Positions 451-53,000 of a DNA stretch of 64,000 nucleotides are shown here, one piece after another. The notes below the pieces were generated by a model. The model did not search any database. It was not told where the DNA came from and saw only the letters and a program-made list of their open reading frames with translations. The DNA comes from Antedon mediterranea. Lineage: Eukaryota > Echinodermata > Crinoidea > Comatulida > Antedonidae. Positions within the stretch are counted from its first letter, which is position 1. Each line of letters starts with the position of its first letter. The DNA lies in assembly GCF_964355755.1 (NCBI RefSeq), contig NC_092675.1, forward strand, positions 26,824,412 to 26,888,411, read 5' to 3'. The translations under genes and the position numbers were made by a program.

Positions 451-2546
451 TTTTCTCTTTTTTTTCTCTTTTGTGGTTAACCACCACCTTTATTTATTCT
501 TTCATACAAATTTCGTTCACATTTCATTTTCATACATTAAATTTCTGTTTTCTACTTTTTTCGTTATTTTCTGATTTTTACTCTTTTAACCTTTATACAT
601 ATAGTGGTTTGATTATATGCATACAAAAACTGTACATCTTAAAATACAAAAATGGATGCCACTTATAAGTTACAACATGCCTAGTGTATTCATATCTTTT
701 AAAATATATTTAAACTGAATCCAGGGATTCTGGCATACAGGTTTTTTAAGTTCAGTTTTAATTTTAATTATGTATATGACGTACACAGCTATTGAATACA
801 ATTGGTTTTTTAATTGACATTTACTTCCTAACAGGAGTTCTTAGAACGAGCTACTGCTGTTATTTAGCTTTTTAAAAATATTGTCAATTTTTTCCCATAG
901 TATTTGATTACGTCTACAGTAATAAAACATATGTTTTTCGTATTCAATGACTCCACAATTGTTACATATGTTATTATTTTTCAGTTTCCAGTTATACAGT
1001 TTTAGATTTGTAGGTACAACTCTATTTAGTAATTTGTAATTCAATTGGGCAAATTTCTTAATTTTTTCGTTTTTCACTTTTCTTTTCCAGACATCACACC
1101 ACTTGATATCTTCATTAAATATGTTATTCCATTTAAGTATGCTTTTCGGGGGAATAAAAACATTATTAACAAAGTTAGAATAAACATCTTTTGTTGTCAT
1201 CTTAATTATATTGTTGATATTGTATTCCAGATTCACATTCATATATTGGTTCATATTTGGCATATTATGTTTAATTATACTTAACCACTCTTTTGGAATA
1301 GCTCTGGTTAGAGAAACATATTCAGCTATCCAGTTTTTCTTAATACGTAATTGTTTAATTATTTCTATAGGTTTCATTAGACGATTGAAAATAATTATAT
1401 CTCCAATTTGATTAAAACCTGCATCTATCCAGTTCTTAAAGAATAGTGGTTTGTTTCTATATTTAATATCATTGTTGTTACCCCATAAGTTTTGCTTTAT
1501 CACTTCTTCATACTCGTTAATTGTACCTTCATTATTCATATTATTAAATTCAACACAACACTTTAGAACATTATAATAAAAAGATGGTATAGTATCTAAG
1601 CCCATGTTATTTTGAAAATTGATATTTGACATACTTAAAATTAGTTGTTCGGTTCCAAATTTATTAAAATAGTATAGTGGTAAGATTTTCCATCTTACGT
1701 GTTTTCTACACAGTAATTTTCTTGCCCATATCATTTTCAGAGAGTTTATGTGTAATGCGAAATCAGGCATACCTATGCCCCTTTTAATCATCTTACCGAT
1801 TAAAGTTTTTCTTTTTATTTTTTCTGTTTTTCCATTCCATAAAAAGTTATATATCAATTTATTTATTTTAAAAATAACATCATCTGGTACATCAATTATA
1901 CATGCATTGTTTGTTAGTTTAGACAAAGCTAAACTTTTTAAAATGGTAACTTTGCCAAAACAGGTTAGGTTTCTTCCTTTCCATCTATTGAGTAGCATTT
2001 CTAAGTTTGCCACCTTACTATCCCAATTTAATTCACTGCATTTGTTCTCATTATATCCCACATAAATACCCAAAATCTTAATTGGTTCATTAACCCAATT
2101 TAGACTGCATGGTTTTTGAATTTTGTTTACATTTTTGCCAATCCATATAGCGTTGGTTTTTTTTTTATTTAAAGTCATACCAGACACTTTACCAAACTTA
2201 TTAACAATGTTTAAACCAATCTCTATACTTTTTTCATTTCCCACAAAGAGTACAGTGTCATCTGCCAGCTGCGCAATGCGAACTTCCTCACCATTATCAT
2301 TGTTAGGTAAAGATATTCCTTTATAGCATTTATCTTTTCTTATATTACACGCCATAATTTCTACTACTAAAATAAAGAGTAACGCCGACAATGGGCAACC
2401 CTGTCTTATTCCGCATTCCATTTCAAAACTTTCTGATATCCAACCATTATTAACAATAACACATTCAAATTTACTATAAATTGTATTTACCCATTTTAAA
2501 AAGGATTCTCCAAAATTAAATTTTTTTAGTACCTTAAACATAAAAT
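451..2546 (-). mobile_element. Tx1/L1-like LINE, 5'-truncated, inserted in a CR1-like LINE
   Basis: The ORF (841-2546 within this element) starts in the middle of the reverse transcriptase palm. It carries GIRQGCPLSALLFIL, the catalytic QLADDTVLF box, the thumb-region motifs FGKVTILKSL and FLWNGK that I associate with the Tx1/L1 group, and a C-terminal CNNC...H...C knuckle. Endonuclease and ORF1 are missing, as expected for a 5'-truncated insertion. The element's 3' end (451-480) is an A-rich tail on the minus strand. The same terminal sequence (TTCTCTTTTGTGG, then TTAACCAC) ends the larger LINE at 47741. A 15-bp target-site duplication, CCATGAGATAAGTTT, lies at 436-450 and 2547-2561. Confidence 0.9.
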
Positions 2547-3093
2547 CCATGAGATAAGTTTGTTTCTTTTCGCTATTGCATTTGTTCATGAGTTCACTCA
2601 TTTGAGCGTTAAAGTTAGAAACTTTGGTGGTCTATAAATAACTCCACAAATAACTGTCTTATTGTCTGTATCAAGTTCAATAATAATACTCTCAGCAGCA
2701 TGCAGAAGCTGCGATAGGTCACTTCTTAATCGATAAGACAAATTTGACTTTATATAAAGCAACGCTACCACCACCTGTGTCCCTATTGTTATATATTGCT
2801 GTATAGTTATTTAATTGATACAGACCAGTAAAGTGTTTACTAGAGAGCCATGTCTCAGTCAGACCGATCGCAGAAAATTCATAGTCAAATCGTGAAACAT
2901 AATTTGATAATTTATCAAATTTTCTTACTATACTTCTACAGTTTAACGAAAATATTAAAAAATTCTTTGATACATCATCTGAACAATATTTAGCTTTGAA
3001 ATCATCAACACTTATATATTTGTTTTCAAAGTAATTTGGTATAGTTATAATGTTGTTTTCTTCTTCATTATTTGTTTGTAATACAAAAGACAT
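2547..3093 (-). mobile_element. CR1-like LINE, endonuclease N-terminal part (right half of a split element)
   Basis: The minus-strand reading begins near 3093 with an Asn-rich leader. It then shows the endonuclease motifs FSLNCRSI, IGLTETWLS and GGGSVALY, and after a frame break the strand IIIELDTD followed by VICGVIYRPP. The end, NAQMSELMNKCNSEKK, runs in frame into the piece at 1-450 if the inserted LINE is removed. The RT part lies beyond the left window edge. The first frame is broken near 2720, so the copy is not functional. Confidence 0.8.
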
Positions 3094-5099: not shown

Positions 5100-6510
5100 T
5101 AAAAAAAGGTAAACTCATATAACAGTTTCCTTATTCCTTTTCATAAAGTTGTTTAAATTAAAATTTATCTAAAAGAAGAAAGAACAAATACTGGTCTATG
5201 CATTTGGATAAAATGAGAAGTCTAGTACAGTATGACTATGGATTCATTAATTATTCATTAATCCATGGTATAATTAAGAACGAAATGATAGAAAAAGAAG
5301 AAGAAGGTTAAATTTAAATTTCGCAATTGGACAATGGAGGGAGGTTTCGCAACCTTACGAATACGATAACGAAAACGGATACGTCATACATTTGTGAAAC
5401 TTTTGAGCTGATCCCCATTTCATATTCGTAAAGCGTATTCGTGTTGACGAATATATCACCAGTCACATTCGTAACTACAAAACGAGTATAGTTTTTGATC
5501 TATTTGCACATTTTGCATTTGAATCAGAAATGATTCATGATTATAATATAATTATAGATTTATTGAATGTAATTTACTAAAGTAATTTACTAAAATGCCA
5601 AGTCAATTTGGATAAATAGCAGTTTTTAAAGTCTTCACTCGCTTTGATGTTACGCTACTAGGCCTAGGCAGCCAAGCACCAAGCAACACGTCCTGCGCTT
5701 TGCTCAAATTTACCACAGTCATATTTTGGACGCGCCTCAATATTTCGTTAGTTCCTTAGTCTTGGCCGAGGCTACAACATCCTGGGTTAAGGCTTTAGAT
5801 ATTGGGCCAAAAAAAAAAAAAGTTTGTTGCTGTCATCCGCCGCCCCTAATTTCGCCAAAAATTTGGGGCGGAGATAAGAAAAAGGTTTTTTTTACGTTGA
5901 GGGCGCTTTTTAAAAATAAGTTTTTTTATGATTTTTTTTTGGCCGAAAAGGTGTAAAAATCGAGTTTGCGAGGATGAAACAATAAAAATAATAACGTAGC
6001 GTATATTTCGGTGTATAATCGCACTTTAATGACACGCAAATTTAACCTCTAAATTAAGGGTGCGTCTTATACCCCGAACATAAATGCCTCAACACACAGA
6101 TATCGCCACTTCGTTGGCTAGGCCTGGGCTTTTTAAGGGGGCCTAGGCTAGGCCTATTAGTATTAGTATTACTAGAGTGCCTAGCCTAGCTACAGTGTAC
6201 TAGCGTAACAGCAACCTGCTAGTTTTCAAGGCATTTTAGCGTGATCTTGTACTAAATACTAAATATGATGAAAAGATTTGTTCATTATGGAGCTGTTTTA
6301 GGCGCTCCGATAAAATTTCATTTGTAAACGTTTACGATTGGAATAGCAAAGATTATATAGCGCCGCGCTACGCGGCGCAAGATAGGCAAAGATCCGGGAA
6401 ATATAATATATATCGTTTCAAATTAATTAATTAAAAATTTCAGTATATCACCTGGCGGTTTAGAATTAATGTTCATTGCCTGATGTGTTTATACAGCACT
6501 TGCCAGCTTT
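5100..6510. other. Non-coding stretch with small hairpins
   Basis: No gene is supported here. Two compact perfect hairpins stand out: CCGCCCC...GGGGCGG at 5840-5871, and GCGCCGCG-CTA-CGCGGCGC at 6360-6378. The segment 6410-6500 matches the 3' half of the tRNA-containing repeat unit found at 14.5 and 17.5-18.2 kb (TTTCAGTATATCACC then GGCGGTTTAGAATTAATGTT). Confidence 0.7.
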
Positions 6511-6516
6511 ATACTA

Positions 6517-6705
6517 TGACGTTATCCAAATTCCTTCACTTGCACTGATGAAGGGCTAGTGTTGCCCGAAAGCTCTGCTACCTTTTCTGGCTGTTTTGCT
6601 TCTCGTTGTTATTTAGCTTTTCGCTTTTATTTTGTATCTCCATTGAGATCCAGCCACTGATACCCACAGCATTGTCATTTTTTCAGTAATTTGCCTTTGG
6701 ATTTA
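6517..6705 (+). repeat. Dispersed repeat A with hammerhead-like core, copy 1
   Basis: First of five copies in the window (others 6713-6880, 14273-14464, 28141-28248 partial, 28256-28431). The unit contains CTGATGA (6545-6551), a GGGC/GCCC stem and CGAAA, followed by AGC-TCT-GCT, which mimics stems II and III of a hammerhead ribozyme. No good stem I pairing is visible, so self-cleavage is doubtful. Confidence 0.75.
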
Positions 6706-6712
6706 TATATAT

Positions 6713-6880
6713 CTTGCACTGATGAAGGGCTAATGTTGCCCGAAAGCTCTGCTAACTTTTCTGGCTGTTTACTTTTTCGTTTTGATTTAGGTTTTCGCTT
6801 TTTAGTTTTGTATGTCCATTGAGATCCAGCCACTGATACCCACAGCATTGTCATTTTTTCAGTAATTTGCCTTTGGATGG
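6713..6880 (+). repeat. Dispersed repeat A with hammerhead-like core, copy 2
   Basis: Directly behind copy 1 in tandem. CTGATGA is at 6719-6725. The 3' end, GTAATTTGCCTTTGGAT, abuts an AT microsatellite. Confidence 0.75.
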
Positions 6881-6900
6881 ATATATATATATACATATAC

Positions 6901-6987
<87 letters not shown>
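6878..6987. repeat. (AT)n / (ATAC) microsatellite
   Basis: A nearly pure alternating AT run with a few ATAC interruptions. The open frames across it (Tyr-Ile repeats) are artefacts of composition. Confidence 0.95.
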
Positions 6988-6990
<3 letters not shown>

Positions 6991-7069
6991 GTTCGGTTCA
7001 ATGTAACCGTCTAGAAAGTGCTCAATACGGTAAAGTAGAGCTAAAATATACGTTAAGTCTGGAAAAGAA

Positions 7070-8630
7070 GTAAAAACTACAGTTTGGTCTCTACAGGCTT
7101 GTTTCGTGAGTCGTGCAACTCACTCATCAGAAGACTATAATGAGAAGAATCAATTACAACGCTGCTTATAAGCACATTTACTTGTAGAATTAGCATTTAC
7201 ATGTGATATGTTTTGGAATGTCAGCTGTTATGTAACAATGCTTTCTTTCTGTGCCGGCAGGCGGACACAAGTTCATTACGTTTGTTTAATGTCGATAATT
7301 CAGGGTGGTGGATGATAAATAATTTCTCTTTGAGGCAGAGATTGCATTTTTTGTTTGTGCTACTATATGCTTTAGTAGATGTCAAGATGCGCCATGAGAT
7401 TGTATTGTCTGTGTTATTGTCCTTGAGTGTCCAAATGTTTACTGAGTTCAGTTGAGTTTCTAGAACGTGAATTACGGAATGATGAGGTGTGATTTCTGTA
7501 TCGTGTTTTAAAATCATTTTCAGTTAGTCCGATATAAGTTTCCGAGGTGGTTTTGTCTTTGCGCGTAACTGTGGCTTGGTATATTACAGATGATTGTAAG
7601 CAATTTCCGCTTAGCGGGCATGTGTTTTTCTGTCGGCAGTTGCATGTTTTGTTTTCTTGCGTGTTTTCCACGGATGTTGTTTCGGGCTGGTTGAGTATTC
7701 TCTTGTTGTGACTGTCTATTATCTGTTTCATATTGTTCATACAACTGTAGCTAATCTTGATAGTGTTTCGGTTGAAGATTTTTCTTAGTTTGTTATCTTT
7801 TGGAAAATGTTTGTCTACTAGGGATAGGAATTTCTGTCCAATGTTTGTGCTGACGTTTTTGCTGAACGGTGGGTTGTACCACAGAATGTCTTTTCGTTGT
7901 CTGTTTTTTCGTCTTGTCTGGGTTACCGGCTCGTATTTTAGTGTACTGGTATCCACTGTCGTTGAGAGTTTTCTGGTGTACAGGGGCGGCTTGGTCGAAT
8001 GAATTCTTGTCGGATGACAAGGACGAGGTCGTCTGTTTATTCCGGCGGGTATATTCTTTAGGATGGTCGGTGGGTGGTTACTTTGTTGATGGATATACTG
8101 TAACGTGGCGTTTGGTTTGGTGTAGAGCTGGTATGTGTTCTTCGCTAGGTTGAGTGTGACGTCTAAGAAGTTGATGACTTGTTTGTTTGCTTCTATGGTA
8201 ATGCGTAGGCCGTTATCTTTGAATATTTGGCATATGTCTTTTTAAATATTTTCTGTGCTTTTAGGTGTGGTGTCTGTGACTGCAAGGCCGTCATCTCTGT
8301 AAAGTCCTATGTTGATTCCTAGTTTCTGTTGTAATTGGTGTAACAGGAAGCTTCCAACAAGTTCACATGTTTCTGCGCCATCATAACTACCCATAGTCAC
8401 ATCGAATGCTGTGGGGCCTTTCTTTTGCCATGGTTGCTGTTTGTGTGATAGTACTGATTTTTTGGTATGTACGATGATGTCTCTTTCGTCGTTGGTAATA
8501 TCATCGTATCTTTTAGCGAAGTCTAGTGCTTTATTCAGCAGGTCATTGCTGATAGAGGGGTAAAATTCTACGATGTCGAAGCATATAAAGTTGTGTTGTT
8601 GTTTCTTATCGATGCTCTTAAACCATATAT
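7070..8630 (-). mobile_element. Penelope-like element, decayed (RT plus GIY-YIG endonuclease)
   Basis: The minus-strand readings in order are as follows. The RT segment at 8620-8242 has FICFDIVEFYPSIS, FDVTMGSYDGAE and the catalytic GLYRDDGLA. The RT end at 8240-8020 has INFLDVTLNL, LYTKPNATLQYIH and NHPPTILKNIP. The linker at 7956-7560 has DILWYNPPFS. The GIY-YIG nuclease follows with SVIYQATV, ETYIGLTENDFKTRYRNH, ELSKH and the Cys-rich tail KKCNLCLKEKLFII...CRH to a stop at 7221. This architecture is specific to Penelope-like elements. It is dead: a stop near 8239, frameshifts near 8020, 7955 and 7455, and no 5' part of the RT. The right end meets an AT run and the palindrome at 8671-8971. 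The hammerhead ribozyme lies in its 3' region. Confidence 0.9.
7087..7135 (-). ncRNA. Hammerhead ribozyme, type I, Penelope-associated
   Basis: On the minus strand the complete core is present. CTGATGA is at 7130-7124. Stem II GTGAGT/ACTCAC pairs 7123-7118 with 7111-7106, with a six-base loop. GAA at 7105-7103 is followed by a two-base-pair stem III (AC/GT) closed by a six-base loop. The cleavage-site A is at 7092. Stem I pairs GTCTT (7135-7131) with GAGAC (7091-7087), one pair being G-U. Very short stem III is known from hammerheads in Penelope-like retroelements. It lies 86 bp past the stop codon of the Penelope-like ORF on the same strand, where such ribozymes occur. Confidence 0.85.
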
Positions 8631-8670
8631 ATATATATAAATCAATGATGTTGCGTAGCACTGTGTAAAT

Positions 8671-8971
8671 TATATATAAATCATACTGTAAATTATAGAA
8701 ACAGTGCTCATATTCGGAACATGATCTCATAATCGCGTCGAGCATAGCTCATTGGTGAAAGTTCCGTATTTTTTAGTTGTATGAAAAAATGTCTCTGGCG
8801 GGATTCGAACCTGCTACCTCTCGCTTACAGGGCGAGTATCCCGCCAGAGACATTTTTTCATACAACTAAAAAATACGGAACTTTCGCCAATGAGCTATGC
8901 TCGACGCGATTATGAGATCATGTTCCGAATATGAGCACTGTTTCTATAATTTACAGTATGATTTATATATA
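8671..8971. repeat. Long palindrome, 134-bp arms, with tRNA-like loop
   Basis: Arms 8671-8804 and 8838-8971 are nearly perfect inverted copies; the visible mismatch is in TTGGTGAAAG versus CTTTCGCCAA. The 33-base loop plus the inner arm reads, on the minus strand, as the 3' part of a tRNA: an anticodon-like stem CTCGC/GCGAG, then AGGTTCGAATCCC, a good B-box and T-loop. The arms would pair over the acceptor side (GTCTCTGGCGGG). Confidence 0.9.
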
Positions 8972-10437: not shown

Positions 10438-10551
10438 TATAATATACGTTGGTAGAAAAAACATAGCAGCAGCATCTTGGTTTTGGTTTTGGTTCTGAGC
10501 TCTACTTTGTTATAATGAAACACATATACAATATGAAGATCTGCTGTTGTC

Positions 10552-13500
10552 ATGCTAATTAGCTATAGCTCTGAGTTTCTTCATGGTTTACAGGGCTGTG
10601 TAACCAACAACAATAACAGTTGTGAACTTCTTGAAGAATCTTGCTTAATTATACAATCTTTTAAGTTGAACTCCAGTAGCTGTAGTATCCACCTATTACC
10701 AAGGAGGCCAAAAAGAAAAACCAGGCGTGGTACAAGAGCTGGGCGTGACAAACACACTAAAAACAATCTATCATTTCTGGACTTATCATCAAACTCTCTC
10801 TTATCTAAAAACAATATTAAATTTTGCAGTATTAATACAAGATCCGTTCGGAACAAAACAACAGAATTTGTGGATTTCGTTATCGAACATAATCTGGATG
10901 TTGTTGCCCTTTCGGAAACGTGGCTTAAACCAGAAGACACATCAGTTATAGGAAATATTACACCCAACGGATACTCTCTCAAACATGCTCCCCGTGCTGG
11001 TACTAAAAGAGGTGGTGGAGTTGCACTTCTTTACAAGGAAAGAATAGCGGTTAAATGTTATGACACGGGATTATTACCAAAATCATTTGAACTGCTAAAT
11101 GTGGAAATAGTCAGCAATGCATCCTCAGTTTTCCTCGTAGCAGTATATCGTCCTCAAAGCAAATCAACGGGTTGCAGTCTAAATGTTTTCACTGAAGAAT
11201 TCTCAACTTTGGTTGATCACTATGTATTGAAGCCGGCTCCCATACTATTCGTTGGAGACTTTAACATCCATGTGGATATGCCAAATGATGCAGATGCAAT
11301 TCATTTTCGGAATCTACTTGTAGCAAGCAGTCTTCAACAGCATGTGTCTACACCTACACACCGACATGGTCATACATTAGACTTGCTGATCACTCGTTCA
11401 TCTGATCCTCCTGTTTTCTCAAACCTTAATGTCATTGATGGTATATCAGATCACTGTGCAATCACATGTAATCTCCTTATCAAGAAGCCACCCGTAATCA
11501 CTAAATCCATCGAAACTCGTCATTGGAATGCTATAAATTTTGAGACATTAAGTAAAGATATCACACAGTCTGATCTCGGAACTTCGCTCTCAAATCTTGA
11601 TTTATCAAGTAAAGTACGACTATATGTCACCACTTTGAGTGAACTTCTTGACAAACACGCACCACCGAAAAAGAGAACAGTAAAGGTCCGACCAAACACT
11701 AGTTGGTATAACAGTGACATCTATGCTGAGAAAAGAACAAAGCGTAAGCTTGAAAAGAAATGGAGAATCTCTCATCTGGAAATAGATCGTCAAGCTTACA
11801 TTGCACAGAAGAGGAATGTAAATTCCATGGTAAGAAAGGCAAAGGCCAACTACTACATTGGCTTGTGTGAAGAACATGCAGCAGATCAGAAAGGACTTTT
11901 CAAAATTGTTAACCAACTCCTTCATCATCGCCAGGTATCACCTCTCCCAGATAGTCTTTCTGACTTAGATCTTGCGAACAGGTTCTGTCAGTTTTTCACA
12001 GACAAGATCAAGATCATCAGAGACGACTTCAAGATTGATGACATGTCATTTAATGAGCCTGTGACAGCTGTTCATCAGCATCTCACAACATTTACACCAG
12101 CATCTCAAGATGAGATCCGCAACATTCTGATGAAATCACCAACAAAATCATGCAGGTTAGATCCAGTTCCTACTTCTATACTGAAGAAGTGTATAGACGC
12201 AGTCGTTCCAATAATAACGGAAATCATTAACCATTCTCTTAATACCGGCATAGTGCCAGATGAACTGAAAATTGCTCACGTTCGTCCTTTAATAAAAAAG
12301 CAAAACTTGGATCATAACACGCTGAAAAATTACCGCCCGGTGTCGAATCTTTCTTTTCTTGGAAAGACTCTGGAGCGTGTAGTGACATCACGCATTACTC
12401 CATATCTTCAAAAGCATAATTTAAATGAGAATTACCAGTCGGCATATCGTGCATGTCATAGCACGGAGAGTTCCCTTTTAAAGATACAGAATGATTTGTT
12501 ACAAGGAATGAATGATGGGAAAATAACGCTATTGGTGTTGTTGGATTTGTCAGCAGCGTTTGATACAGTTGATCACCAAAGACTGATAACCCGTCTGAGA
12601 AATCGCATTGGCATAAATGGTGTTGCTCTTAACTGGTTCCAGTCATATCTTACAGGAAGACGTCAGCTAGTCTGTATCAATGATGCATTCTCAGATGAAG
12701 CTTGCCTGGAATATGGTGTACCACAGGGGTCAGTAATTGGGCCTGGCCAGTTTTCCATTTATACGCTTCCCCTTGGTGACATTATTCGCAAACACAGTCT
12801 ACATTTCCATTTCTATGCAGATGATACACAGATTTATGTGTCAGTAAATCCAGTGCAAAGGAATGTTGCTGCAGCAATCAGTAAGATGGAAGCCTGTATA
12901 GAAGATGTTCGCAATTGGATGACAACAAATTACCTAAAGTTGAATGATGGAAAGACAGAGTTTATTATCGTCGGGTCTAAATGTAACATCTCCAAAATCA
13001 ACATCACACATATCAGAATCGGAAACTCTAACATCGCTCCCTCATCGGTGGTCCGGAATCTGGGAATCATGCTGGATAGTAATCTCACTATGGAAGCACA
13101 AATAACAACTGTATCCAAAGCAGCATGCATATCGATTAGGAACCTTGGTCGTATTCGCGGTAATCTTAACAAGAAAACAGCTGAATTGATTGTACACTCA
13201 TTTGTCACTTCTAAAATTGACATTGGTAATGCCTTGTTGTTTGGCATACCAAAATCTCAAATACAACGTTTGCAGCGCTTGCAAAATATGGCAGCTAGAA
13301 TTGTAACTTATACAAAATCAAACGCTCACATAACTCCTGTCCTGATGGATTTGCATTGGTTGCCTGTTCAACAACGTATTAAGTACAAACTTGCGTTGTT
13401 CGTATTCAAGATCCTAAATGACAGTGCTCCTGCTTATTTATCTGACCTTGTGGATCGTTACGAATCATCCCGCAGAGGCCTACGATCATTGTCACAAAAC

Positions 13501-13671
13501 CTTCTTCAAGAGCGTAGAGCGAAAAATCAGTGGGGTCAGAGATCTTTTTACGTTGCGGCCGCAAGTGTATGGAACAGCTTACCAGCAACAGTTAAATGCT
13601 CAACTAGTCTAAACAGTTTCAAGACCAACCTAAAGATGTCGCTATTCGCTGATGTTCTCGCACGTTGTTAA
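10552..13671 (+). CDS. CR1-like LINE ORF2 (endonuclease plus reverse transcriptase), intact
   Basis: An uninterrupted 1039-codon ORF encodes the retrotransposition enzyme of a CR1/jockey-type LINE. A basic leader (residues 1-80) precedes the apurinic-type endonuclease: FCSINTRSVRN, ALSETWLKPED, VGDFNIHVD and DGISDHCAIT, ending near residue 320. The reverse transcriptase covers about residues 520-800, with ENYQSAYRACHSTES, LLDLSAAFDTVDH, GVPQGSVIGP and the catalytic HFYADDTQIY. The tail LHWLPVQQRIKYKLAL and AASVWNSLPATVK is typical of CR1-group C-termini. The 3' UTR has GGCGCTATATAAG followed by an (ATT)-rich tail to about 13755. The first Met is uncertain; an ORF1 is not visible upstream, only the palindromic repeat. 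Confidence 0.9.
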   Translation: MLISYSSEFLHGLQGCVTNNNNSCELLEESCLIIQSFKLNSSSCSIHLLPRRPKRKTRRGTRAGRDKHTKNNLSFLDLSSNSLLSKNNIKFCSINTRSVRNKTTEFVDFVIEHNLDVVALSETWLKPEDTSVIGNITPNGYSLKHAPRAGTKRGGGVALLYKERIAVKCYDTGLLPKSFELLNVEIVSNASSVFLVAVYRPQSKSTGCSLNVFTEEFSTLVDHYVLKPAPILFVGDFNIHVDMPNDADAIHFRNLLVASSLQQHVSTPTHRHGHTLDLLITRSSDPPVFSNLNVIDGISDHCAITCNLLIKKPPVITKSIETRHWNAINFETLSKDITQSDLGTSLSNLDLSSKVRLYVTTLSELLDKHAPPKKRTVKVRPNTSWYNSDIYAEKRTKRKLEKKWRISHLEIDRQAYIAQKRNVNSMVRKAKANYYIGLCEEHAADQKGLFKIVNQLLHHRQVSPLPDSLSDLDLANRFCQFFTDKIKIIRDDFKIDDMSFNEPVTAVHQHLTTFTPASQDEIRNILMKSPTKSCRLDPVPTSILKKCIDAVVPIITEIINHSLNTGIVPDELKIAHVRPLIKKQNLDHNTLKNYRPVSNLSFLGKTLERVVTSRITPYLQKHNLNENYQSAYRACHSTESSLLKIQNDLLQGMNDGKITLLVLLDLSAAFDTVDHQRLITRLRNRIGINGVALNWFQSYLTGRRQLVCINDAFSDEACLEYGVPQGSVIGPGQFSIYTLPLGDIIRKHSLHFHFYADDTQIYVSVNPVQRNVAAAISKMEACIEDVRNWMTTNYLKLNDGKTEFIIVGSKCNISKINITHIRIGNSNIAPSSVVRNLGIMLDSNLTMEAQITTVSKAACISIRNLGRIRGNLNKKTAELIVHSFVTSKIDIGNALLFGIPKSQIQRLQRLQNMAARIVTYTKSNAHITPVLMDLHWLPVQQRIKYKLALFVFKILNDSAPAYLSDLVDRYESSRRGLRSLSQNLLQERRAKNQWGQRSFYVAAASVWNSLPATVKCSTSLNSFKTNLKMSLFADVLARC

Positions 13672-14272
13672 TGCACAAAGCGCCATGAGCGCCACATGGG
13701 TGGAGGATACCGGCGCTATATAAGTTTTCATTTATATTATAATATTATTATTATTGTTTCTAAAATAATGAGTGAATTGCCACCCATATGCATTGTATAT
13801 TGGGTTATTTGTTTGAATAGGCAGGAAATTTTCTCGCCGAAAAGAATTAAGTGAAAATGTAGGCCTACTTGATGTCACCCTACGTTTTCACGATAACAGT
13901 GATGCTATTTATATCCTCTGGTCACCTTAGGATTGAGTAGGTATTTGCACAAACTAGCAATTTATTGTTCCAAATCTGGCGTTGCGTATGACCAGGTAAT
14001 CCGTTTAAGCTTGAACTATTATACAGTGCAGTTGAGCATCGTCGGCCTATTGTTGGTTTCCAGGGCGTTTTTATTTATTTTATGCTTCTATGGTGTAATA
14101 TTATACCACTTTGAAATGTCAGTGGAAGAGAGGAATTCTCGCCAAATATCAATCTATTATTCAAAATCCACATGACCTTGTTTATACAAGTTCTTTTATT
14201 TATTACATGCCTCCAGTTCCTATTTTTAATACTGCAGTATCGTATCTGTTTAGCAATATTATATATATATAT
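13672..14272 (+). other. LINE 3' tail, then sequence with no gene seen
   Basis: 13672-13755 is the 3' UTR of the CR1-like LINE, ending in ATT repeats. From there to the repeat A copy nothing codes convincingly. Confidence 0.6.
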
Positions 14273-14464
14273 ATGACGTTATCCAAATTCCTTCACTTGC
14301 ACTGATGAAGGGCTAGTGTTGCCCGAAAGCTCTGCTAACTTTTCTGGCTGTTTACTTTATCGTTTTGATTTAGCTTTTCGCTTTTTATTTTTGTATCTCC
14401 ATTGAGATCCAGCCACTGATACCCACAGCATTGTCATTTTTTTCAGTAATTTGCCTTTGGATTT
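14273..14464 (+). repeat. Dispersed repeat A with hammerhead-like core, copy 3
   Basis: Begins TATGACGTTATCC like the copy at 6517. CTGATGA is at 14302-14308, followed by the GGGC/GCCC stem and CGAAA. Ends TTTGCCTTTGGAT, then a short AT run. Confidence 0.8.
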
Positions 14465-14477
14465 ATATCTATATATA

Positions 14478-14831
14478 AGGGCGTATCAATTTGATCTCTG
14501 GTGCGCGTGAGTACAACTGAGGACTAGTTGTGTTCCAACCGTACCACGCCGAGAATGTTAAAGGGTCGTTATCCGATCGAGTTAAAGAACAATACCATGA
14601 AAGCCCCAGTGGTCTAATGGTTAGGGCAACTGCATATCAAGCAGACGGTCCGAGTTCGAGTCTCGGTTGGGGCGACTTTTTCTCATTCTCCCAGATTTCC
14701 TCATCTTTATCGTTTCAAAAATTAATTAAATAATTTTCCGTGTATCACCGGGCGGTTTGGAATTTATTTCTATGCCTGTTGTGTTTATATATATATAAAA
14801 GTATCTCTCGAGAAACCGCTTAGTGAATAAA
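14478..14831 (+). repeat. tRNA-containing repeat unit, copy 1
   Basis: The unit runs from GGGCGTATCAATTTGATC, through a tRNA-like segment, to ACCGGGCGGTTTGG and GTGAATAAA. The same unit occurs at 17473-17841 and 17842-18175. The latter two are direct tandem neighbours with a 369-bp period. Copy 1 is separated from them only by the THAP-bearing element. Confidence 0.85.
14603..14673 (+). tRNA. tRNA-like sequence in repeat unit 1
   Basis: Seventy-one bases fold as a tRNA. The acceptor is GCCCCAG/TTGGGGC, the D-arm contains TGGTCTAATGG (A-box-like), the anticodon stem is CTGC/GCAG with loop ATATCAA (positional anticodon ATC), and the T-arm is CCGAG-TTCGAGT-CTCGG. No CCA follows. Repetition in the unit suggests a SINE head or an amplified tRNA pseudogene. 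Confidence 0.65.
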
Positions 14832-17472: not shown

Positions 17473-17841
17473 AAAAATACTGTAAGATGAGGGCGTATCA
17501 ATTTGATCTCTGGTGCGCGTGCGTACAACTGAGGACTAGTGCTGTTCCGCCGTACCACGCCGAGAATGTTAAAGAGTCGCTATCCAATCGAGTTCGAACA
17601 ATACCATGAAAGCCCCAGTGGTCTAATGGTTAGGACATCTGCATATCAAGCAGGCGGTCCGAGTTCGAGTCTCGGTTATGGCGACTTTTTCTCATTCTCA
17701 CAGATTTCCTCATCTTTATCGTTTCAAATTAATTAATTAAATTTCAGTATATCACCCACCGGGCGGTTTAGAATTAATGTTCTTTGCCTGATTTGTTTAT
17801 ATATTTAAAAGTATCTCTTCGGAGCATCCCGCCTCGTGAAT
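17473..17841 (+). repeat. tRNA-containing repeat unit, copy 2 (369 bp)
   Basis: Starts AAAAATACTGTAAGATG and ends CGCCTCGTGAAT. It is almost identical to copy 3, which follows without a gap. The tRNA-like part is at 17612-17682, where the 3' acceptor strand has drifted (TTATGGC). Confidence 0.9.
17612..17682 (+). tRNA. tRNA-like sequence in repeat unit 2
   Basis: Same fold as at 14603 with an intact T-arm (CCGAG-TTCGAGT-CTCGG). The acceptor stem is damaged on its 3' side, so it is probably not functional. Confidence 0.6.
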
Positions 17842-18175
17842 AAAAATACTGTAAGATGAGGGCGTATCAATTTGATCTCTGGTGCGCGTGCGTACAACTG
17901 AGGACTAGTGCTGTTCCGCCGTACCACGCCGAGAATGTTAAAGAGTCGCTATCCAATCGAGTTCGAACAATACCATGAAAGCCCCAGTGGTCTAATGGTT
18001 AGGACATCTGCATATCAAGCAGGCGGTCCGAGTTTGAATCTCGGTTGGGGCGACTTTTTCTCATTCTCACAGATTTCCTCTTTTTTATCGTTTCAAATTA
18101 ATTAATTAAATTTCAGTATATCACCGGGCGGTTTAGAATTAATGTTCTTTGCCTGATTTGTTTATATATTTGGAA
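17842..18175 (+). repeat. tRNA-containing repeat unit, copy 3
   Basis: Tandem neighbour of copy 2, truncated after TTGCCTGATTTGTTTATA. The tRNA-like part is at 17981-18051. Confidence 0.9.
17981..18051 (+). tRNA. tRNA-like sequence in repeat unit 3
   Basis: The acceptor GCCCCAG/TTGGGGC is restored relative to unit 2, but the T-loop reads TTTGAAT, with T-stem mismatch. Confidence 0.6.
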
Positions 18176-28140: not shown

Positions 28141-28248
28141 TGCTCTGCTAACTTTTCTGGCTGTTTTGCTTTTTTCCATTGAGATCCACCAGCCACTGAT
28201 ACACCCACAGCATTGTCATTTTTTCAGTAATTTGCCTTTGTATTTATA
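28141..28248 (+). repeat. Dispersed repeat A, partial copy 4
   Basis: Begins at GCTCTGCTAACTTTTCTGG, so the hammerhead-like core is absent. It lies in an intron of the receptor gene next to a full copy. Confidence 0.8.
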
Positions 28249-28255
28249 TATATAT

Positions 28256-28431
28256 AAATTCCTTCACTTGCACTGATGAAAGGCTAGTGTTGCCCGAAAG
28301 CTCTGCTAACTTTTCTGGCTGTTTACTTTATCGTTTTGATTTAGCTTTTCGCTTTTTATTTTTGTATCTCCATTGAGATCCAGCCACTGATACCCACAGC
28401 ATTGTCATTTTTTTCAGTAATTTGCCTTTGG
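28256..28431 (+). repeat. Dispersed repeat A with hammerhead-like core, copy 5
   Basis: CTGATGA is at 28273-28279. The stem II strand is changed to AAAGGC, weakening the pairing with GCCC. Confidence 0.8.
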
Positions 28432-29962
28432 ATATATATATATGTATATATACATCTATTATTAATTATTATTACTATTATACTATTATTTATTAGTAAT
28501 TAAATTTATCATAATATGATTTGTTTTATTTGAATAAAATTTAAATATTATAGTTATACAGAGAGTAGAGCTAGATAGGCATGAAGTTGCCTTTTCTCTT
28601 CTTCCTTTTCATCCAATTATTTAAATGTTTTATATAATATAATGTTATATTTATGTATTATGTTTTTAATTTTTGGATAAATAAAGAAAGAAATCAAGAA
28701 ATATTATTCAGTCTGATGGATATCTGCTGACATCCAAAGCTGCATAATATTTTAATAAGAAAAGTATTTAAGTAAATAAGTACATAGTTGGCATTGAGTA
28801 ATACGTATTATTATTATGGTATGTTTTGTAGTCTGCTTGATCGAATACACACTACTGCATTAGGTTAAAAACAAGAAAAAAACTTAAATGTTGTGTCACG
28901 CACACTCATAATAATTATTTTAAAAAATATTTTTCGTTGTCACTAAATTTTGAAATATTTATAACCTTATAGGTTTAGATCCTGGAATATGCCCCGTACC
29001 GGTGGATCTAACAACTAGAGCTGATGTTAAGATTGGTGCTACTACCACCACCACAAATGTAAATACGAATACACCAACCGATTTGTTTGAATGTAATGAG
29101 TGCTATGGTGTAGGCCTAGTGGTTGCCCGGATAAGTGTGTCGTCTGCTGTCATCATTACTATTGAAATTATAGGTTTTGTTTTCATTCTACGAAATAAGT
29201 CAACAAAATCAGACAGAAACCATGGCAAAGGTAGGACATACAAGTTACACAATCTATAATATTGTTATTTTTGTACACGGATTTGATAAATATTATTAGC
29301 TGGGCATGTAGGCTACCATTAACTGATTGCCGGTTTTAAATCATTATGCAATATTCGTTCTTTTTGGAATGTTCACCTATGTACTAGGCCTAGGACTCCC
29401 AACACGAAAATGAACCTGTGTACTTACGTACTTATTTTACAGAATTTTACTGGTAATTTAAAGTTACTAAAGTTGATGGTTATCATTATGATAATGCTTA
29501 TTTATGTTGTAGTTAATGAGGCGTTTATGATGAAACCAAGGCTGTCAGCAGTAGTAATGACCTACCAATCTACCAGGATACAGTGCTCCATGATACTGTG
29601 GAAGCTGCGGCTGCAGTTGGTGCTAGTGTAAACTCTGACAGATGTCCAACTTATGAAAAAGTTCATTAAAAGAATATTACTTAACTTACAAACTTTGTAG
29701 TCGAACTAGGAAATCAACAGAGGTGGTTCAATAAAAATTATATAGACGTATTTTATTAGATTTTGATACCGATTAACCTGTAACACCCCTATACTAAAAG
29801 ATCATTTGAATTAAAAATGGGTTTCCTCAAGAAAGATAGAGAGAAAACAATTAAGTATTAGCCTACTACGCTATTTTGATTAATGCATTTAAACTGGATT
29901 CATTTTGTTTCACTGTGCTTATCCTCCATTCTAACTTGTAACACTTTAGAATTTCAGTATTT

Positions 29963-32900: not shown

Positions 32901-34177
32901 TCGTTATGTACCGTACAGTACATGTCGGTCTGTCTGTCTGACAATTAATCTATTATTTTATTTAGTTTAAAACTTATCATCATTTGTAACTACACCAGTA
33001 TATAGGTATATATCAATATACGACAAAAGCATTACTGAAGTATAAAAGATGGATTATCGTTGGTGTCATATGCTGGTAAATTGGTCAATTTTATTTTTGT
33101 CAATTTTTAAATTTGGTTTGGGCATCTTAAGTGCGTCATCATACTAAACAAAATTGTGTAAAATTATAATAATATTAGTTTGTTTTGTGAAGTTGTCTGT
33201 TTATCCCTAAATATTAAAGGTCGAAATCTAGGCAGTTTTATCAAAAGCACAAAGCATCGTTTTCAATCTCTATTATAACAAGGATTAAACACCGTCCAAG
33301 CGAAACGCATAAAAGTCATTCACCATGGTGGTAACTGTAACGTAACGTGAGCCTATTCTCTTCCATAAGAATCACAATAATACAAATGGTTAGACTAAAA
33401 AAGAAAGGTTTGGGTCCGAATGTAGTATTATTATTTTTTTAAATATATTTATTTTTATTTCCAAAAGAGTTGATTGATTTATTTGAAAACGGTGTGTTAA
33501 GCTACTTCTTGTATATTATCATCTTACCCATGACACGTCATTCGTGGATGTGTCACCCAATCTGCCAATCTGGTCAGATTACCAGCATGGTCCCCAAGAC
33601 CGTTCAAGATACAGATTCCGTGTGTATGAAGACTTTCAAGCCATGAGTACAACCACGATTCATCAGACATAACATCATGAAAAGAAAATGTCGGTATCTT
33701 ATCTCTCGTCATCTCAGAACCCCAGTACCTCAAATGAAGTCCATCAAGTGGATTAATCGAAGCTGGGAATTTGACGTCTTTTAACAACTTCAAAGGATAT
33801 TTGCTCGTGTGTGCGTCTGACCATTCTACATTAATTGATTGATCATCGTGCATGCCAACGTTTAATGGGTAGACATCTATATCAAGCTTTTTCAAAAGTG
33901 TGAGTTTCTGTCCAGCGGTTTCTTGGTAGCAAGAATGACAACGACAGTTATCACGTAACCAAATAAACGGACACTGAATCTTCATGTCCCCTTCCTCTAA
34001 TACTATAGTTTCAGAAGTAGTATCAATGATGATATTTGTAGACATTCGACGTCTCTCTATATTACCGGATGAGCTATATAAACGTCCATAATTCTGACTA
34101 GAGAAACTATATGTATCAGCTACAGGGATACATCGTAAAACATTTGTCAAGTTAAAGCGGTAACAATTTCGCAGCAT
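29963..34177 (-). CDS. BBOX1: Gamma-butyrobetaine dioxygenase-like, copy 1
   Basis: Five exons on the minus strand: 34177-33528, 32756-32651, 31080-30875, 30622-30456 and 30108-29963. All have GT-AG borders and the total is 1275 bases (424 residues). Members of this family hydroxylate gamma-butyrobetaine to L-carnitine (or trimethyllysine in the sister enzyme) using Fe(II) and 2-oxoglutarate. The N-terminal Cys-rich metal-binding part reads CPFIWLRDNCRCHSCYQ. The iron ligands are His and Asp in ELHTDLSYYSYGPG and the distal His in NTRVLHGRTAFEAGG, whose following Arg binds 2-oxoglutarate. Residues 1-50 are rich in Arg, Ser and Asn with no acidic residues before the first Asp, which resembles a mitochondrial presequence. 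A trimethyllysine dioxygenase assignment is less likely. Confidence 0.85.
32049..32275 (+). repeat. tRNA-derived SINE-like element with 3' hairpin
   Basis: The head 32049-32116 is tRNA-like: TAGTTCAGTCGACAGAGCA (D-arm, A-box), the stem CGTG/CACG with loop TTAACAA (positional anticodon AAC), and AGGTTCG as B-box. The body ends in a strong hairpin, arms 32192-32216 and 32242-32266 (CATCTGGT...GAAACGAC) with two mismatches. It sits in intron 2 of BBOX1 copy 1; I see no counterpart in copy 2. Confidence 0.6.
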
Positions 34178-35392
34178 TTTGGTACATTTGATCAATCAAA
34201 AAACAACGAGTGCACTGAATTACTGTCGACTCATCAAGGGCAAAAACGGGGAAAAAAATGACAAAGGACTGTACCACTGTAAAAGTGGGGATGCTGTAAG
34301 CCTACGGTATATATATTTTTTTATAGGCCTACCAATCATTTCATGTCTGTGTACATACAGGTTTGTCGTTTCTATACCAATGATGGTTTTTGCAGCTCTG
34401 CTAAAGTTGCACGATTTTGGATCTTCTCAAGTTTAATAATGTCCAGGAAACATAAGATAGATGCCTTGGGCCACGGGGTTGGTAAGGTAACAGAACAAAC
34501 TAGAGTGAAGGCCATTGTCGAATCGACATACCATAGATTAATTAGCTTTTTCCAAATTACTACTAACAAATTATAACAGAAACATTTTTTTTATAACAGT
34601 AATCTATGGTGGAGGTGAATTCAATATAAGTGATCCAAGGTATAAGAGTGAAATTATGATTATGTTGTACCTCTATGATATATTTTCATTAAAGCGTAAC
34701 ACTTGTTCGAATCATAATTTGCATAACACTATTCCAATCACTTCCACATATGTTAACAATGTATTTCTAAAAATAAATGTAGGATTTGATGGGTTTTTTT
34801 AAAAGCCGTTGCTGTGCTTTAGAAATTGACTAATATCTATTTAAAGGTGAATAGGGCCTAACGGGACCAGATTATGTTACGTTCAGTTTAAGGTTAGATT
34901 GATTACTTACGGGTTGAATTACTGATACACATCGCTTATAAAATAGTGCGGCCGATTTTGTAAACCCGGAAAGAGTGATGATTCTCTAGCTACATATTTT
35001 TATTTAATTATCATTCTGTTTTATTTGTTGTATTTGGTACGCTTCACGATCAACATTTAGCATATATTTTGCATATGCTACTATAATATTTAAGTTTTAC
35101 AATAAGAATATTAACGGACTAAAATAGTAGGCTAGTATAAGTTAAGCAAGGTATTATTAGGCCTATTATTTTTTTTTATTTCAGATAGTAGTAAGTAAGT
35201 AAGCCAACTTTACTTGACTTGGCCTAGCCACCCCAGCCTCAACCGCTAGTATTGAACTACTAATAGTAGATCTATAGAGCTGGCTAGCATCTTTGTTCAA
35301 ATTAAGAGTGACCACGAGTGAAGAAGCAAAAGGCGCGATACTCGCAAATTCGAGGCCTCTATTAATAAAGCCTATAGCCCAAATATATGACG
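34178..35392. other. Upstream flank of BBOX1 copy 1 (duplicated at 55422-57290)
   Basis: The region matches the flank of copy 2 in blocks, for example GGATGCTGTAAGCCTAC, AATCTATGGTGGAGGTGAAT and TTTACGGGTT-like pieces. No ORF is conserved between the two copies, arguing against a gene. The TATATATTTTT near 34309 is the only TATA-like string close to the start. Confidence 0.5.
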
Positions 35393-47096: not shown

Positions 47097-50000
47097 TCAT
47101 TTGCCAGAAATTCCCCTCATTCGTGAATATATTTCGTCCCAGTCGAGATATAACCCTTGTAGATGACGCTGTATCGAATACCCTGCTTCAAAAGCAGTTC
47201 GACCATGTAATACCCGAGTATTGTCCAAACAAATTGCTTCACCTACAGTAAAAAAGAAAGTACATCGTATATTTATTATCAATATTTATTGGTGTTTGTT
47301 TTATAATGTTTTTCATAATTTGGCAACATTATAAAAAGATGGCTTGTTCAAAGTTTGATTTTATTTTTTTGTATTGTTTCTGAAAAACAATAATTACTAA
47401 AAAAATGTTTATATATATACATATGTTCCTTTTATGTAAATAAATACAAAGATAATACCGTAGGGTACTTGTCCTTGTTGGTGATGGAACACTTTACGAG
47501 AAATAAACTTTTTAGTTTTATTAACTCTTTATTTGTAATATTGTTTATTTGTAATGAACATAACATAACAATCCAGTTCTCTATGTCACAAAGTTCCTTC
47601 GTGTGCCCATCATGGGGAAAGGGTAAACATTACATTTATGCCGGTTATAAAAACTCACGTTGTCAAATTAAATAACCGGTATTAGGTTCTGTATACATTA
47701 TTAAACTTGACATGATGATGTCATATCACTACCATACTTTTTTTTTTTTTTTTTCTCTTTTGTGGCGTTAACCACTATTTATTCATTTCATTTCATCAAC
47801 AGATTAATACAATTATTTCTAATAATAATAATAACTATTCATTGTTATTCTTACTTTTGTTTGGTTTGGTGTATTTATATATATATATATATATATTTTT
47901 ATTTTTATTTTATCAACGTTACTGTTCTTGGAATCAGAGCATTATTTCTTTTCTGTTATCCACTTTTTTCATAATTTTCTAGTATTTTTTTTGTTCTATA
48001 ATTCTCAACATCTAACATTGTGAACACTTAACTAATAAATGTACTGTATGAGATACATTTACTAATGTTGTATAGTTATTTTCGGTAGTATTTTTGACAT
48101 ACAATTCATTTATACCCTATATACAGATTATATACATTATTTTAAAATACGAATAAAAAAAACAAAAACAAAAATATTAAAAATGCTTTTCTTACTCCTG
48201 TGTCTAGTTTTATGTCTCATGGTTATATTTGTTTGCTTATCTTCTCGTGCGTTACTTATGTTGCGTTACGTTTCTTTTTTGTTTTCAATATTAATTTATA
48301 CAATTTTTTTTTTTTTATTTATATTTCATATAAGATAAAATGAAACTGCCTATGTGTATTATACAACATTATTATGTAATATATTTTAAATAATCAGATT
48401 CACATCAATATAAATTATAATAGGTGGTTAAGGTAAGATCTTTTGTTTTTTTCCGCCATAAAAAGACGAGACAATGATCCGGTCCATTTGTTTACATTTT
48501 TCAAAGTATGTGCCTTGTAAACGCTGAAGCATCCAATAGAGAACATGTGGTCTACATATTTGTTTCCTGTACCTAGTACAATGTTTCGATAATTTGCCTC
48601 GATCCCAAATTTGTGCATGGTGTAAACGTTAATATATTCCCATAAGGGTTTTACTTCAGTGCATTCATAAAAGAAATGGGCATCATCCTCTACTACGTTG
48701 CATTGTAGGCAAGTATCTGTGTTGCTTATTTTCCATTTTAACAGCCTTCTTTTGGTAGGTGTTATACAATGCAATAGTTTGATGTTCAACTGTTTAAGTT
48801 TATTATCTTTAATATCTTTAATTTTTCTTTTCCATGTTACAGACCAATCGTTCTCCATGTTAAAATATGTTTCCCATTTTGTTTTACTTTTGGATGGTTC
48901 TAGACATTTTTCCTTAATAAAGAAAGAACATATTTGTTTGCTACTCATATTCAAACATCGAACGTGTGTTGTTTTTGAGTGCTTTTGGTTTTTATCCCTT
49001 AAAAAGATTTTCTCTTTCCATTCTTTTGGAATTGCGTTTAATACAATTTGCCATTCAGCAATCCAGTTTGATTTATACCTAAGCATATCTAGTAATTCAT
49101 TTGCGTTAATGAACCTATTCTCAATTACAATATCCTTAATATTTCGCACACCTGACCTTACCCAGTTTCTAAAAAATATTGACATGTCATTGTATAAAAT
49201 CATTTTGTTATACCAGAGTTGTTGATGCAATATATCATCATAACATAATTGACGTTTAGTCATACCACTATTAAGTTTGACTAAAATACATAGTATAGAT
49301 TTATAGAAATCGGGTATGGCTTTAAAAATAGCATTTTTCTTATCAATATATGATATGTTATCAATAATGTCTTTTGGGCCTATTCTATTAAAATATGTGT
49401 TTGGCAGACATTTCCACTTTGAATCCTCATTGTTATACAATCTTTTAAGCCAAGATATTTTTAAAGATTTAACCTGTGACCTGAAATCAGGCGCTTTAAC
49501 ACCACCACTTTCATATTCGTTTATAAGAACTACTCGTTTAACCTTTTCTCTTTTTCCATCCCACAAAAAGTCAAAAATTATGTTATCAACACGTTTTAGA
49601 ACACTTTCAGGCGTGTCTATAATACTTGCAACATAAACAAGTTTTGACAGGCCCAGCGTCTTTAAGATAATTATTTTTCCAAAAATGGTCAGATTTCTTT
49701 TTCTCCACGATCTAAGTGTGTTTTGTAACGAATAGATTTTTTCGGACCAATTTTTGGCAAAACAAAATTCTTTATCATGGCCAATATAAACACCTAAAAC
49801 TTTAAAACCGTCAGAAATCCAATTAATGTCCAATATGTTGTCCTTTTTCTTCCATTTTCCAAGCCACATGGCATTCGTTTTTTCTTTGTTAAGTCTTAAC
49901 CCAGACACATTACCAAATTTGATGACAACATCAATACACTTTTTTATGCTGTTCTCATCTTTCATAAATAAGACCGTGTCGTCTGCAAGTTGTGCAATTT

Positions 50001-53000
50001 TGACCTCGACAACTGGGTTTGGTAAAAGTATACCTTTAATAAGTTTATCCTGTTTTATCTTTAACGCCATAATTTCAGCGACCAAGATGAACAGAAGTGC
50101 GGATAAAGGACAACCTTGTCTTATACCTCTAAACATTTTAAAGCTTTTTGAGCACCATCCATTGTTTAAAATAATACATTCTGTTTCAGCATATAGAACT
50201 CTGACCCATGCAATAAAAGACGGTCCAAAATTGAAATGGTACAAAGTGTTAACAAGAAAAGTTCTGTCTACTGTGTCAAAAGCTTTTCTAAAGTCTAAAC
50301 TTAATAATGCCCCTGATAACTTGCTAGTATCCATATATTCAATTACATCTTCGATCAATCTGATGTTTTCACCACCAAAACGGCCTCTAATGTACCCTTT
50401 TTGATCATTACTCACAATTGTTTTAATAACATTTTGTAGCCTTTTTGTTAAAACAAAGGCGGCAATTTTATAGTCAGTGTTTAAGAGAGTTATGGGTCTC
50501 CAATTGTTTAGGTCTTCGAGATCCCCTTTTTTAAATATTAAGTTTATTACTCCCCTTTTTTGCGTATTTGATAGTGCTCCATTTTTTAAACATAGATTGA
50601 GAGCATTGCAGACTAATACGCCAATCTTGGGCCATAATGTCTGATAGAATGCTACCGTGAGACCATCGGTACCTGGCGCTTTATTTAATTTCATACTCCG
50701 TATCGCTTCTTCGCATTCTACGGAGGTTAATTCTCCTTCACATAACCCCTTTTCAAGATGTGTTAACTTTGGAACGTCTATTAAATTTAAATAATTTTGA
50801 ATATCATTTGCTTGTATGTCCTCTTTTGCATACAACTTTTCAAAGTGTTTGACTTCTTCAATCAAGATATCTTTAGTTTTTTTGGCGCATGTTCCGTCAG
50901 ATTTTTTAAATCTTTTTATTTGTTTTCTTTTCCAGTTATTTTTTTCCAGACCAAGGAAGTATTTGGAGTTCTTTTCTCCTTCTTCTACCCATTTCGCTCT
51001 TGAACGAATTTGAGCCCCTTTTGCCTCATAGTCATATATATCCTCTAATTCTTTAGATTTAATTTCAATTTCTGCATTCACATATTCATCTCTATCGTTG
51101 TTCATTAGTTTAGCGTTTAGTTGTTGAATTTCTTTTTGTAAGTTTTCTTTATTTCTATTTCTATTTTTCGATTTTAGTTTGCCAAAGTTGATTGAAAATT
51201 CTTTGATTTTGATTTTAATTAGTTCCCAGATTTCTATGTTATTAAGAAAATAGAACTGCTGTGAACAGCTATCTATTATCTGATTAATTTTGTTGAGAAA
51301 TTGTTCGTCCTGTAAGTAATCGGAATTTAATTTCCATAATCCTGGACCACGAGAGTCTTGAAATATATTTATCTTAATGGAAACTCCTTGGTGATCAGTA
51401 GAAATCGCTGGTCTAATATCGCATGAGACAATGTTTCCTGTATCATGCAAACTTTTTGATACAAACCAGTAATCTAGACGTTTAAAAAGGTTGGCCGATT
51501 TCCTACACCAAGTAAATTGTGATTTTAATTTGTTTAGAAGTCTCCAACTATCTACTAGTTTCAGTTTATTTATAAGATGTTTAATTTTTAAGACAGATTT
51601 ATCCGTTTTCATTTTGCTACCTTTTTGATCGAGTAGCCTATCCTGAATACAATTCATATCTCCGCCGATAATGATATACTCATCAGTGATCGAAAATGTT
51701 TGAATTTGCTTCTCAATATTATTAAAGAAAGAACCTCTTACTTTTGAATCATTTGGCGAGTATATATTTACAAACGTGTATTGGGTACCATTGATATCAA
51801 TTTTTAACAGAATATATCTTCCATTAATGTCAATTTGTTGTTTTATAAGTTTGTATTGAAGGTCTTTCTTAATCAATATTGAGACACCTTTGCTAAAAGA
51901 GCTACCAAAACTATGATAAGCATCTCCATCCCAAAGAAAATTCTCGTTGGAGACAAAGATGTTTGTCAGATGAGATTCTTGGATGAGAAAAATATCAATT
52001 TTGTTGTCTTTAGCCCAATTAAAAATTTTTCTTTGTTTTTGTTTGACTCGCAGTCCTCTTACATTCAAGGATACACAATGTAAGATTGCATTTTGTTGCT
52101 TAGCCATAATTAGATATAGTAAATCAATTCAATGCAAACAGAAAAATAACAGGTATATAAATTAATAATAATAATGATAAAGGATAATTCTGACCCTATG
52201 TTGATTTGCTTCTCATGCGCTTCCTTTTTTTTTTCTGTTTCTGGATAGAACTAGATGAGCTGGCATCTATGTTCGTATTTTCATTAGTGTTTTCATTGTC
52301 TTCGGTTGAGATATCACTACCATACTTTAGGTTGCATTATTTAGAATAAAGTTAATTCAAAGTCATCTTATACCTGGCTGTAGTTTCAGAGATATCAAAT
52401 TGTTTCGACTATAGAGGTTGTCCAGGAAAGTCTTCATCGCTTTGTACACTTTCTTGACGTCTTTAACCTCGACGCTCATACAAGTATCTTGATGTGAATA
52501 GGCGAATACAACATCTTCGACATGATCACTATTGCTCATTCTAAAAGATAAGCAAAATTGATAAAACATTAATAGTTTAATAATTGATTAATTAATTTGG
52601 ATGAAACCATGTAGGCTTACTTTTAAAGTGACATGGCAAAAATACTTCACTTTAAGTTGCTTAAAGGTTAATTTTCCTATAGAGGTAAAAGTACTCGGGG
52701 TAGGCCTAGGGAGTAGTTCTCCGGTGAGTACCTATTGTCTGGATACGGTTGAAAGATGTGAATAAAAAATAATAATTAAAAGTAAAAACCTAATAATTGG
52801 TTTCCAAGCCCGAAGAAGGTACTTAGTCTTTGATATTGAGTGTATTCCTTCATATACATTTGCCACTGGCACGGTACTGAGTATTTCAAACGTTTCTGGG
52901 TCGTCTCTTTTTAAGTCGTTAGCCACTTTAAAACCATCGGCAAACTCACTTAGTCCACCATTAACACTGTCTTGTATACAATGTAGAAGTTGAACCTAGT

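Follow-up and report, generated by a model that had tools for sequence, protein, structure and literature searches.

The minus strand of the window (the whole stretch of 64,000 nucleotides of Antedon mediterranea analysed here, contig NC_092675.1) carries at 7087..7135 a minimal type I hammerhead ribozyme (HHR) of 49 nt, as established by motif scan, a simulation null, sibling copies and a covariance model built from the same genome. The motif is real, its reading as the hammerhead of a Penelope-like element (PLE) is right, and the kind is already known. It lies past the stop of the element, is present in sibling copies and resembles the other HHR types of the genome. Very probably it is the 3'-UTR hammerhead of a young, multicopy, endonuclease-bearing PLE family whose HHRs would cut as dimers. 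It is met here in a dead, 5'-truncated copy, kept because the insertion is recent and not through selection. Significance is small: one more well-documented case.

The ribozyme is composed, in 5' to 3' order on the minus strand, of the stem I 5' strand GUCUU (7135-7131), the core CTGATGA (RNA CUGAUGA; 7130-7124), stem II with its loop (7123-7106), GAA (7105-7103), helix III with its loop (7102-7093; ACAAGCCTGT, letters identical in the family consensus), H17, which is A (7092), and the stem I 3' strand GAGAC (7091-7087). The CUGANGA ... GAA core, the A15.1-U16.1 pair and a cleavable NUH triplet are all present, and the core is enclosed by three stems. As in the minimal type I HHRs of PLEs, the permutation is type I, helix III is short and its loop is self-complementary: helix III, ACAAGCCUGU, is a near-palindrome in which 4 of 5 pair types are self-complementary. 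Cleavage is predicted 3' of the A at 7092 (7091..7092, minus strand), where a GUA triplet occupies the canonical place. All core bases are present, with 5 pairs in stem I, 6-7 in stem II and 3 in helix III. Stem II has 6 Watson-Crick pairs and one U.G (7 in total); an eighth pair, which would close a 2-nt loop, is left uncounted. Helix III reaches 3 pairs only with the invariant A-U counted. The family stem I is GUCUC/GAGAC, and the window copy alone is changed among the 31 copies examined: a private substitution at 7131 (minus; C to T in the orientation of the element) makes the core-adjacent pair U.G, not C-G. In the motif scan of the whole window, 7135-7087 is the sole site that combines all the stems with a helix III of short span.

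The initial annotation had given the coordinates and core bases of the motif exactly. Its five-pair stem I stands, with U.G as the core-adjacent pair, as does its six-pair stem II, to which the U.G comes extra; its two-pair stem III is correct if the invariant A-U is omitted and becomes three pairs if it is counted. The same annotation called the hammerhead complete. This is true of core and stems and needs qualifying otherwise: helix III is short, the hammerhead fold is not the favoured one in prediction with 10 nt of flank, and any loop I-loop II contact is hypothetical.

The element around the motif is a 5'-truncated PLE copy (about 6969..8626, minus strand), 97.2% identical to its sibling L042. 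It retains a reverse transcriptase (RT) piece with FDIVEFYPSIS ... YRDDGLAV, closed by an in-frame stop (8242..8646, minus), followed by the RT end, a Cys-rich linker and the first half of a GIY-YIG endonuclease, where the frame is lost near the 3' end (7414..8241, minus), and by the second half of the endonuclease in a different frame (7221..7523, minus; stop 7223-7221). Protein dead through these two lesions, the in-frame stop and the frameshift. The HHR starts 85 nt past the stop; its downstream position had been annotated correctly, the gap of 86 bp inexactly. The element tail 3' of the cleavage site (6990..7091, minus) ends in (TA)n, and a (TA)n stretch (6880..6990) runs from the PLE 3' end to copies of a 205-bp repeat, REP. 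Where the element is truncated on its 5' side, a palindromic insert occurs (8671-8971), with 134-nt arms at 99% and a tRNA-like centre.

Pfam matches of the protein are under the curated cut-offs: RVT_1 at E 6.7e-4 for the RT piece read past its stop with X, and GIY-YIG at E 0.0054 with X at the frame change. PDB and NCBIfam searches gave nothing useful; in viral_contigs, relatives of the protein pieces and matches to a GIY-YIG pattern were absent; a single-sequence structure prediction (mean pLDDT 36.8) was left unused. The motif set is taken to be PLE-type, a label based on motifs and architecture. The canonical PLE organisation, with RT and a C-terminal GIY-YIG endonuclease in the same ORF, is seen in two siblings. 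In L042 an uninterrupted frame of 603 residues begins at the N-terminus (MERFSIDYSTKN..., start inferred), covers RT and reaches into the endonuclease; in L044 a single frame covers the stretch between RT and the endonuclease end. The HHR is downstream of the coding frame in both. Copies are 5'-truncated at many lengths, and head-to-head inverted copies occur at L035, L038, L040 and L043; PLEs with head-to-head inverted arrangements are reported in PMC3846280.

Sibling copies were sought in the genome (354 Mb, 18 contigs) with a query of 201 nt around the motif. The best 40 of 96 first-look candidates were scored, comprising the window copy and 39 others at 94-99% identity, so that counts are lower bounds; 33 of the 39 scored siblings are 97-99% identical. 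Of the 40 scored copies 31 were examined: that of the window, those at 29 further loci, and an additional one within L018. Core and pairs are intact in 27 of these 31, window copy included. The initial annotation had proposed a search for the same ribozyme beside intact copies; besides its retention in the 27, the HHR is present near the longer frames of L042 and L044, that of L042 being broken.

A motif scan of loci L005-L049 and the window, requiring stems I, II and two helix III pairs, yields three HHR types beyond family A, the family of the window: B (L047 3851-3798; L018 and L047 are one place), C (L048 1989-1945; L020 and L048 are one place) and D (L033 1794-1851). A covariance model, R2, built on A, B and D with the window copy left out and searched against 46 sources (300 kb), gives 65.4 bits for the window copy; in an unfiltered search of the window the runner-up reaches 14.5 bits, hence a single HHR there. 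The model adds type E (L010 340-295; 33.5 bits, E 2.6e-5) and an inverted, degenerate copy resembling D (43.9 bits; L018 = L047). Type C is missed by R2 at E<=1 over the 46 sources and reaches 19.3 bits (E 0.0067) in an unfiltered search of 3 sources; its recognition comes mainly from the motif scan. Type E lies 153 nt past the stop of another PLE, the endonuclease end of which is 63% identical to that of the window over 68 residues. Mismatches of type E are the first stem II pair and the outer stem I pair; it is absent from the covariation counts. By the siblings, the divergent HHR types and this second PLE, the annotated PLE assignment is supported. In all, no fewer than five HHR types occur inside or close to PLE copies of this genome; two (A and E) stand after a PLE stop, and one family is young.

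For family B, the best 40 of 222 candidates were scored. Five further loci of this family vary: the HHR is nearly unchanged in L052 and L053, diverged in L051 (36.9 bits) and partially matched in L054, and an R2-type search of the fetched locus L055 gave no HHR match. A tandem of HHRs in one transcript unit was not encountered, the window and L042 having one each. Elsewhere, a direct-order HHR pair 950 nt apart occupies one place (L018 = L047 = L050), and L040 holds an inverted pair. At G000:C2:845428-846865, units of some 48 bp that match the family B PLE tail form an array; it may be a satellite grown from that tail.

Across the window copy and types A, B, C and D, 94% of the cells of stems I and III are paired and 12 are changed on both sides. 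With the partner slid by 1-3 columns, 29-43% are paired, with at most 2 two-sided changes. Shuffles match the observed value in 14 of 500 cases for pairs changed on both sides and in 19 of 500 for pair types. Pairing counts are partly a product of selection of the sites, as the scan demanded the stems; the inner two helix III pairs were not demanded, and both form in B, C and D and one of the two in A. Misalignment of C excludes stem II from the covariation count. In B, C and D helix III forms a perfect 10-nt palindrome (5/5 pair types), palindromy being no scan criterion; the helix III letters of B and D are identical, which leaves two independent cases, not three. In family A one pair type is A.C, hence the imperfect palindrome, and 37% of all 256 tetraloops give a self-duplex as stable as that of family A.

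A chance match to the hammerhead pattern is next to incredible. In 882 Mb of simulated first-order Markov sequence of window composition, the class with at least 5 pairs in stem II, 3 in III and 5 in I is matched 0 times, and a looser class (4, 3, 4) 4 times, or 0.0006 per window; covarying divergent relatives occur in the same genome, and type E follows the stop of a second PLE. The sibling families have already refuted this reading. What it can claim is a folding z-score of only -1.0, which puts the RNA 1.0 standard deviation ahead of shuffles in stability, and the Rfam score. At gathering thresholds, the Rfam search of the window finds four tRNAs only and no hammerhead; a permissive search gives Hammerhead_3 at 13.7 bits, where the cut-off is 48.5; the register differs, with GAAA placed elsewhere. 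By Rfam model score the motif is outside the hammerheads, a cut-off that is not treated here as defining for minimal PLE forms. The initial annotation had proposed a covariance-model check and named a background score as refutation, so that, with Rfam at background, relatives had to decide. The check is divided: Rfam at background, the model from the other HHRs of the genome at 65.4 bits. Given the latter score, the former is no refutation, and the Rfam models seem unsuited to minimal PLE hammerheads.

A real motif could still be an inactive fossil, inherited within the PLE and without cutting anywhere in the family, source elements included. This is unlikely, if much less so than chance. It agrees with the short helix III and with the predicted folding, in which an alternative fold is preferred for the HHR with 10 nt of flank (MFE -15.3 vs -10.7 kcal/mol; predicted probability of the HHR fold about 1e-4) and, for the 49 nt without flanks, the HHR misses the minimum by 0.8 kcal/mol; PMC7761336 describes the in vivo role of PLE hammerheads as unknown. 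Against it are the compensatory changes by which types A to D differ in stem I and in the inner pairs of helix III, and which would not be maintained in a dead motif, and the position in loop II of the sole HHR variant common to several of the 31 family copies. Very improbable is the opposite case, a window ribozyme under selection of its own, as a host co-option or regulatory element, while the protein decays. The initial annotation had raised such independent constraint as a possibility, and core and pairs are indeed intact in a copy whose protein carries a stop and a frameshift. The data disagree with it: variable columns number 8 of 49 in the HHR and 21 of 146 in the flanks (Fisher p=0.82; computed over columns 1-195 of 203, without gaps and without the 8 ragged columns at the end), and singletons break the HHR in 4 of 31 copies (L013 in stem II, L026 at G12, L029 at H17, L030 in helix III). 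L042 is the same place as L013, so the longest fetched sibling has an HHR broken in stem II. Neutral retention of the HHR at two protein lesions is 0.67-0.79 (interval 0.23-0.97; rough, indel rates assumed). As the HHR varies like its flanks and the private change weakens stem I, the retained ribozyme of the window copy is no evidence of constraint. Individual HHR copies show no sign of selection.

Under the preferred reading, that of a 3'-UTR hammerhead in a young PLE family, the RNA of source-element transcripts would cut itself after the A of GUA. Cutting would be best when two HHRs pair via the self-complementary helix III, by which two hammerheads share one longer helix (double hammerhead), and would release or separate head-to-tail element units. 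Left to itself, the lone window copy, with a 3-pair helix III and U.G in stem I, probably cuts weakly, if it cuts. According to PMC7761336 and PMC6466107, PLE pseudo-LTRs hold minimal type I HHRs in tandem that may cut as dimers; such cutting depends on tandem arrangement and on palindromy of the helix III loop. In PMC11167929, HHR mutants of an Anolis PLE left in vitro insertion unchanged. The biological role of PLE hammerheads could be addressed in this genome by comparing insertions and transcripts of copies with intact and with broken ribozymes.

Among known systems, the PLE minimal type I HHRs, as described in papers citing Cervera and De la Pena (2014) and Lunse, Weinberg and Breaker (2017), are alike in strand order, minimal helix III, self-complementary helix III loop, location beside a PLE ORF and many genome copies. 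They have a perfect palindrome and stand in tandem, whereas the window family has an A.C pair type and the window copy is alone. The Anolis PLE PAc is likewise an RT and GIY-YIG element with an HHR in a non-coding end; in PMC11167929 that HHR overlaps the ORF start inside tandem pLTRs, unlike the window HHR behind its stop. A second HHR upstream of the ORF is not seen in L042, the longest sibling fetched. Animal non-LTR retrozymes (PMC7229834) are similar in their type I HHR, AT-rich character and co-occurrence with PLEs, but are short non-coding tandem repeats, whereas the window element encodes RT and endonuclease. Assignment to the retrozymes (non-coding unit of 170-400 nt, tandem type I HHR) is rejected on account of this coding capacity.

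REP, the 205-bp repeat, is present on the plus strand in four window copies (6510-6712, 6713-6890, 14270-14478, 28240-28450), tandem in places. Its core, CUGAUGA(A)-GGGC/GCCC-GAAA-GC/GC-UA, is hammerhead-like, with an extra A and no adjacent stem I; core plus stems II and III have a chance expectation of 0.014 per window. The best 40 of 1732 first-look candidates, the window's own included, are 99-100% identical; copies at fetched PLE loci have 77 to 99% identity, a short fragment aside. REP is present at 8 of 15 fetched PLE loci, some copies being short fragments; it abuts the PLE end at 6 of the 15 (L035, L039, L042, L044, L045, L049), is about 130 nt from it in L048 and farther in L038. REP is rejected as a full hammerhead: stem I is absent next to the core, and the HHR models R1 and R2 have no match to it in the window. 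In one copy 4 stem I pairs can form, provided that helix III spans 62 nt and a base ahead of stem II stays unpaired. The REP-core pattern has no match in viral_contigs. It is conceivable, at rather long odds, that REP is a non-autonomous, retrozyme-like partner of the PLE, amplified very recently at least in part and mobilised by PLEs at (TA)n sites, its core derived from an HHR and stem I lost, provided in trans or placed in another register. In L048 2208-1945 (minus), antisense REP is followed after about 50 nt by hammerhead C and (TA)n, and the three may form a single composite element.

Pattern scans for HHRs in other collections gave 1 match in the viral and 3 in the bacterial collection, all rejected. 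L001 is inside a long ORF of a viral contig; L003 is inside an ORF that is presumably tyrosyl-tRNA-synthetase-like; L002 and L004, viewed with 60 nt of flank only, are judged chance. The ATG in CUGAUGA is rejected as a start codon for a unit lying downstream, its frame closing after 16 codons.

Further features of the window are as follows. A tRNA-like composite repeat (SINE-like) is found at 14475-14798, 17481-17810 and 17850-18171, with a direct-order pair at 17.5-18.2 kb; at several loci, (TA)n, REP or PLE ends are close by. Two coding stretches of close similarity, separated by 21 kb (33524-34195 and 54771-55439, minus), are likely a gene duplication, the product of which is assumed to resemble gamma-butyrobetaine hydroxylase. 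Long RT ORFs, taken to be LINE-type, are present at 841-2631 (minus), 10537-13671 (plus) and 48415-52128 (minus), two of them exceeding 1000 residues without a stop.
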